From Alphaproteobacteria bacterium (GTDB taxonomy: Bacteria; Pseudomonadota; Alphaproteobacteria; DSM-16000; Inquilinaceae): 64,000 nt of DNA. The notes beneath the pieces are model-generated. The model searched no databases and was not told the origin of the DNA. It saw only the letters and a list, made by a program, of their open reading frames with translations. The stretch covers positions 1 through 64,000 of the forward strand of contig JANQGH010000095.1 of the NCBI GenBank assembly GCA_028277405.1, read 5' to 3'. Both the position numbers and the translations under genes were made by a program. Below are positions 47,212 to 48,601 of this stretch, in pieces; the first letter of the stretch is position 1; each line of letters begins with the position of its first letter.

Positions 47212-48015
47212 TTATCGCGTCGGATCGTATCGATTGATGTAGCGTTCCAGATCGCCGGCGAAGGCCCGGCTGTCGACGGCGATGTTATAGGGTCGCGGAC
47301 CAAAATAGATCGCCGAATTGACCGCGACAATCTCATAACCACCATCCCGCTCGATGAACAAGGGCGAACCGCTGTCGCCGGGGACGATATCGCACATATG
47401 GCGGATAATGTTGAGATCGGTATAGCCGGTGATCTCACAGCCCATATGCGCCGTCAGCTGGTCTTCGTAATCGCCGCTATAGCCCGCCTGGTTGATATCG
47501 TCCCAGCCGCGCGCGGCCGCCAGGTTCAACTCACCCTCGGTCACTGTGTGGACGTCGAAGTAGTTGGCCTCACCACCGATCGGCTGATCCAACAAGACGA
47601 AGGCATAGTCGCGACCGTTGTCCATCGTCGCGCCATCGCGCCGGTCGGCATCGTAGCCCGGCGGAATCCAGAACGAGACGATTTCAGCCTCGGCGCTGGC
47701 CCCCTCCTTATGGTGACCGGCGCGAAAACCGGACGGCATTTCGAACAGCGGCGCCGTCCCTTCCATGTTGCGGTAAAAGCAGTGAGCGGCCGTCAGGACC
47801 ACGCGCTGGCTGACCAGCGCGCCGGAACAGTGACTGCCGCTGTCGAACACCAGTTTTCCGACGGCCGACCATGGCATGTCGGCCGGCGTCACGAACACAC
47901 GGTCGTCGCGGCCGAAAAACAGCCGCGCATCCTCTTGCGCCGTCGCGCTGCCGGCCCCGATGCTCATGGCGATCGCGAGGGGAACGGCGGATATGGTTCG
48001 GGTCACGGTATGCAT
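47212..48015 (-). CDS. Secreted trypsin-like serine protease
   Basis: The 267-residue protein has a signal peptide ending near GSATAQ (~27) and a chymotrypsin-fold S1 domain. The triad is His78 in VVLTAAHCF, Asp136 in NGRDYAFVLLD and Ser215 in VPGDSGSPLF. Cysteines around His (Cys63/Cys79) and near Ser (Cys193/Cys208) could form disulfides. It resembles glutamyl-endopeptidase-like bacterial S1 proteases. It sits 69 bp upstream of waaF on the same strand. No inhibitor or propeptide is obvious. Confidence 0.88.
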   Translation of the reverse strand: MHTVTRTISAVPLAIAMSIGAGSATAQEDARLFFGRDDRVFVTPADMPWSAVGKLVFDSGSHCSGALVSQRVVLTAAHCFYRNMEGTAPLFEMPSGFRAGHHKEGASAEAEIVSFWIPPGYDADRRDGATMDNGRDYAFVLLDQPIGGEANYFDVHTVTEGELNLAAARGWDDINQAGYSGDYEDQLTAHMGCEITGYTDLNIIRHMCDIVPGDSGSPLFIERDGGYEIVAVNSAIYFGPRPYNIAVDSRAFAGDLERYINRYDPTR

Positions 48016-48119
48016 GACCAATCCAATGTGCGTGCGGAATCGGGCCGTGGCAAGGTAAGCGAGGGGCTTCGGTCGCCTTGTTCTTGGCGGATTGACGGAT
48101 TGTTGATACGCTCAGAAAA

Positions 48120-48134
48120 GAACAAACAAGGAAC
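48120..48134 (+). promoter_or_regulatory. LexA (SOS) box in front of mmcB
   Basis: GAACAAACAAGGAAC is an exact GAAC-N7-GAAC, the direct-repeat SOS box of alphaproteobacteria (GTTC-N7-GTTC on the other strand). It ends 5 bp before the mmcB ATG and includes its AAGGAA ribosome binding site. MmcB of Caulobacter is reported to be LexA-regulated. Confidence 0.8.
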
Positions 48135-48139
48135 TTCCA

Positions 48140-48601
48140 ATGCAACCGGCCGATACGAAGGTTGAGAGCCCACGCTCCCGACCCGACACGACCGCTGCCG
48201 TAACGCGGGGAACGCGACGCTTTTTCGCCCTGTCGGGCCACGCGACCGTGACCGAACTGTCGTTGAAGGGCGGACGGCGCGCCGACATCATGGCGATCGA
48301 TCCGAAGGGCGCGGTCACCATCGTCGAAGTAAAGTCATCGATCGAGGATTTCCGTGCCGACGGCAAGTGGTTCGACTACGGGCCCTATTGCGACCATTTC
48401 TACTTTGCCGTCGCGGCCGATTTCCCCGCCGACCTGATCCCCGACCATTGCGGGCTGATCATCGCGGATGCGTATGAAGCGGTGATCGAGCGGGAGCCGG
48501 AGCCGACGCCCCTGAACGCGGCCCGGCGCAAGGCGGTCCTGTTGCGCTTTGCCCAAGCCACGGCCGGCAAGCTATGGCGGCTGGAGGACCCTCAGATCTG
48601 A
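48140..48601 (+). CDS. mmcB: MmcB-family DNA repair protein
   Basis: MmcB is a small PD-(D/E)XK-type protein needed for resistance to mitomycin C in Caulobacter. The 153-residue protein shows the nuclease-like core RRADIMAID followed by VTIVEVKSSIEDFRAD, giving the D...E-x-K pattern, and then WFDYGPYCDHFYFAV. It is preceded by an exact SOS box. It converges on hldE with 16 bp between stops. Confidence 0.9.
   Translation: MQPADTKVESPRSRPDTTAAVTRGTRRFFALSGHATVTELSLKGGRRADIMAIDPKGAVTIVEVKSSIEDFRADGKWFDYGPYCDHFYFAVAADFPADLIPDHCGLIIADAYEAVIEREPEPTPLNAARRKAVLLRFAQATAGKLWRLEDPQI

Follow-up and report, generated by a model that had tools for sequence, protein, structure and literature searches.

Results

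The sequence GAACAAACAAGGAAC, which stands just upstream of the mmcB start codon, is very likely a LexA operator that keeps mmcB repressed. We hold this view because boxes of this type with an A/T-rich centre are enriched in the genome, because related boxes are found at its lexA and recA genes, and because the box is conserved at the mmcB starts of relatives; the same class of box also precedes other repair genes. We infer LexA binding and the induction of mmcB from the DNA. The window, by which we mean the whole stretch of 64,000 nucleotides that was analysed, comes from an alphaproteobacterium of the family Inquilinaceae, and the features around mmcB are collected in Table 1.

Table 1. Features at the mmcB start region and their positions in the window.
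Feature	Position	Strand	Remarks
Trypsin-like serine protease, divergent neighbour	47212-48021	-	PF00089, E = 7.3e-13
Predicted -35, TTGGCG	48084-48089	+	relative L055 has the block TCTTGGCGG in this position; CTTGGC in L049 and six g2 genomes
Predicted -10, TACGCT	48107-48112	+	17 bp after the -35; TTGATANGCT conserved with L055; g2 has TAGGAT in this frame
Putative LexA operator (SOS box), GAACAAACAAGGAAC	48120-48134	+	exact GAAC-N7-GAAC; predicted +1/+2 to about +16
Shine-Dalgarno sequence AAGGA, part of the operator	48128-48132	+	7 nt to the ATG, normal spacing
mmcB, MmcB-like DNA repair protein, 153 aa	48140-48601	+	PF06319 profile match

The mmcB gene and its probable operator

The reading frame behind the box matches the Pfam MmcB-like profile with an E value of 6.8e-51 and 172.3 bits, against a curated cut-off of 22. 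Its ATG is the earliest ATG, GTG or TTG 3' of the in-frame stop, and the later candidate starts (GTG and TTG) fall within the conserved domain; thus, the start codon is secure. A scan of the genome contigs with the MmcB protein gave one distant match only, and the mmcB relatives used below were gathered by family searches instead. We do not claim LexA control for the divergent serine protease gene.

The first-pass annotation had described a perfect GAAC-N7-GAAC that ends 5 bp before the mmcB ATG and contains its Shine-Dalgarno bases. Both statements are correct: the box lies exactly there, separated from the ATG by the five bases TTCCA, and AAGGA falls within it. The box has the form of an alphaproteobacterial LexA operator, a GAAC-N7-GAAC direct repeat (GTTC-N7-GTTC on the other strand) with a spacing of 7, and it is placed at a promoter of a damage-response gene, in a start region with conserved -35 and -10 blocks. 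A second, identical copy is present in the same genome (G000 C28:1934-1948). The annotation also spoke of a fusion of the box to the ribosome binding site. The overlap is real, but it deserves less weight than it was given; it is largely a by-product of the box, because many boxes in this lineage have GGAAC as their 3' half and the box lies a few bases from the ATG.

The predicted promoter and transcription start

The window and relative L055 share three conserved blocks, TCTTGGCGG, TTGATANGCT and GAACNAANNANGAACTTCCA. Six genomes of the sister genus g2, together with L049, have CTTGGC and TAGGAT or TAGTCT in nearly the same frame as the -35 and -10 of the window. Transcription is predicted to start near 48119 (about 48118-48120), roughly where the box begins, and this conserved arrangement fits the earlier proposal that the operator blocks the transcript start region. 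The leader would then be about 20 nt long and consist mostly of operator. Thus, of the suggestion that the mRNA is near-leaderless, the short leader is retained, whereas a leaderless message is not expected here, as the Shine-Dalgarno sequence has normal spacing.

A generic sigma-70 scan found no promoter in this region, and the -10 TACGCT is weak by the E. coli consensus. A second -35-like element, TTGACG at 48092-48097, is close to the -35 consensus and might place the start a few bases away. It is conceivable, if unlikely, that the box is a true LexA site but that transcription starts further upstream, for example from promoter parts such as TTGACG or TTGATA; LexA would then act as a roadblock and the leader would exceed 25-30 nt. 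The near-consensus TTGACG speaks for this arrangement, but the frame that the relatives have in common is TTGGCG/TANGCT, not TTGACG. We rejected the promoter built on TTGACG because this element is not shared with the relatives.

SOS boxes elsewhere in the genome

The first-pass annotation had proposed that the genome be scanned for the box and the downstream genes be listed. The outcome depended on how the box was defined. The bare GAAC-N7-GAAC motif occurs 4 times in the window against 1.82 expected, which is not significant (10 of 100 shuffles reach 4), and 211 times in the 6.2 Mb genome against 167 for reversed-pattern controls, which is near chance. In contrast, the A/T-centred form GAACAWANNNNGAAC occurs 13 times in the genome compared with 2 for the reversed control, and the genes behind it include repair genes. 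Across 17 genomes of the family, the A/T-centred box gave many matches and its controls almost none. The regulon was listed from pattern searches, which for the bare motif cover part of the matches.

The near-chance counts of the bare motif, in the window and in the genome, are what would be expected if the GAAC repeat were an accident of the A-rich Shine-Dalgarno region AACAAGGAAC to which LexA does not bind. We regard such an accident as very improbable in view of the position of the box, its A/T centre, its spacing specificity and its recurrence at mmcB starts in distant families. In addition, the 15-mer recurs elsewhere in this genome, in a promoter with two divergent boxes.

A different box at lexA and recA had been named in advance as evidence against LexA control of mmcB. 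We found the same box class at both genes: lexA (TIGR00498, 169 bits) has an exact GAAC-N7-GAAC box, GAACTTTATGGGAAC, upstream, and recA has a box with one mismatch, GAACAAAACAAGTAC, at -111. Within the family, half of the 16 lexA genes read carry the exact box. The genes behind A/T-centred boxes include dinB (NF003015), nrdJ (TIGR02504) and a DNA-glycosylase-like gene, as well as a PA0069-type radical SAM gene and two recombinase loci. Some of the 13 boxes adjoin genes that have no obvious role in repair (an Fe-alcohol dehydrogenase, a glyoxalase and the region upstream of mraZ), and so not every A/T-centred box need be active.

Several of these loci merit separate description. SOS-type boxes precede two similar pairs of a small ORF and a site-specific serine recombinase (L006 and L037; G000 C4:656-670 and C69:112495-112509), which are probably integrated elements under damage control. 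Another box (L039; G000 C79:45103-45117) precedes an mraZ-like ORF and, behind it, an rsmH-like ORF, both identified by eye; with this pair the division and cell-wall cluster begins. At G000 C28:1934-1977 (L033 1472-1515), two divergent SOS boxes stand 14 bp apart, one of them letter-identical to the mmcB box, and a relative has a counterpart of this arrangement (L222; G001 C1:558376-558419). The short membrane-protein ORF behind the double boxes, of 43 aa in G000 (with SEFLTLVLFFGIVYTGALLAHGYGL) and 32 aa in the relative (with TLTLLFGICYGLAVFGYAWGL), is a candidate SidA-like SOS division inhibitor.

Conservation of the box at mmcB

We collected the start regions of 118 mmcB genes from the class and searched 140 bp around each start for the box in either orientation. 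The exact box was present in 11 of them, compared with 0-2 for each of eleven letter permutations; neither the adjoining 160 bp upstream nor the coding region of these genes had a match. The spacing was specific too: N7 gave the 11 matches, N6 and N8 gave 3 each, and other spacings gave 0-1. In genus g5, GAAC-N8-GAAC takes the place of the N7 form at the mmcB start region and spans an ATG (L045 and L046).

With a weight matrix built from the lexA, recA and other boxes of the family and a threshold of at least 10 bits, about 36 of the 118 mmcB genes matched, compared with 0.35 expected from shuffles. The operator in the window received the top score, which is slightly favoured because the training set includes the same 15-mer once, from contig C28. 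SOS control of mmcB appears to be patchy across the class, because about 70% of its mmcB genes have no recognisable box.

Box geometry in relatives

In the sister genus g2, the order of elements is TAGGAT, 8-9 nt, ATG and GAACAAAGAAGCAAC, which places a one-mismatch box within codons 2-6 of mmcB. These codons read GAA CAA AGA AGC AAC in 6 of 6 genomes, while the rest of the g2 mmcB genes use AGA for 0 of 99 arginines and CAA for 0 of 32 glutamines. This codon choice suggests a constraint on the DNA, with the caveats that A-rich early codons are also favoured for translation and that identity among the six genomes is 92-96% in this region. A TIGR03916 DNA modification/repair radical SAM gene of g2 likewise has the GAAC-N7-CAAC variant directly next to its ATG, and so LexA can probably use this variant. 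A large SOS-box-like set abutting start codons is formed in g2 genomes by GAACATATCATGAAC (on the other strand GTTCATGATATGTTCC, abutting an ATG), with about 25 copies in G001 that stand before unlike ORFs in the copies read; examples are L219 at about 1001, L220 (minus strand) and L221 at about 771.

In g2, L049 and L055, the -10 read from the sequence lies just 5-9 nt before the mmcB start codon. Thus, the leaderless-looking architecture would belong to these relatives and not to the window. Other geometries also occur. In family f46, all three genomes sampled (L111, L129 and L141) are boxed, and the box occupies the spacer that separates TTGAA from the -10, at a distance of 11 bp from the ATG; in L084 the box is 3' of the -10, as in the window; and in L160 the mmcB ATG lies within the box. 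From these arrangements, the operator seems to keep its place at the promoter, and it is the start codon that shifts.

Discussion

We propose the following model for the regulation of mmcB. RNA polymerase would recognise TTGGCG-N17-TACGCT as promoter and initiate at about 48118-48120. LexA on 48120-48134, where it covers the start point and the bases that follow, would prevent initiation or the escape of polymerase from the promoter. When DNA is damaged, RecA would trigger the self-cleavage of LexA and the operator would clear. An mRNA with a short leader would follow, in which the first 15 or so bases are operator sequence, and AAGGA within this operator-derived leader would serve as the Shine-Dalgarno sequence. 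MmcB would then be induced after DNA damage.

That the operator acts mainly on translation, with LexA secondary and a GGAAC/UUCC leader segment that folds and modulates ribosome access, is hardly credible. The Shine-Dalgarno sequence is predicted to lie in a 3-bp GGA/UCC hairpin, but the predicted fold is no better than those of shuffles (z = -0.84), and most of the boxed relatives lack a conserved UUCC partner. We rejected the hairpin as a translational switch.

LexA repression of mmcB has already been reported in Caulobacter, and our finding is very likely a further case of an SOS-controlled mmcB. The nuclease activity of MmcB and its part in mitomycin C resistance are known from Caulobacter only. 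PMC9578287 describes Caulobacter MmcB as a PD-(D/E)XK nuclease that protects from mitomycin C, lists the LexA box as GTTCN7GTTC and, citing da Rocha (2008) and Lopes-Kulishev (2015), gives mmcB as SOS-regulated, in agreement with the background offered by the first-pass annotation. The window resembles the Caulobacter crescentus LexA regulon in the direct repeat (here as its reverse complement), in the mmcB family and in the SOS regulation of mmcB there. In the window, the box overlaps the Shine-Dalgarno sequence; the contrast we draw is with the spacer position in family f46, not with Caulobacter's own site.

Leaderless mRNAs are common in alphaproteobacteria, with 375 in C. crescentus (PMC4117421). 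The very short distance from the -10 to the start in the relatives' mmcB genes is like that of such messages, whereas the ATG in the window is Shine-Dalgarno-led and lies about 20 nt 3' of the predicted start. We tentatively suggest, giving the idea slightly less than an even chance, that the operator is anchored at about +1 and the start codon moves around it: here the operator comes first and provides the Shine-Dalgarno sequence for the ATG behind it, and in the sister genus the ATG comes first, the message has no leader and residues 2-6 (MEQRSN) are encoded by the operator. If this is true, leadered and leaderless initiation have been switched under a fixed repressor site.

SOS control of mmcB is indicated beyond Caulobacter, with a box-like site at about 30% of the sampled mmcB genes of the class. 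These genes form a natural series of operator geometries, in the spacer, at +1 with the Shine-Dalgarno sequence and inside the first codons. This series lets one ask how repressor sites and translation starts co-evolve where leaderless mRNAs are tolerated.
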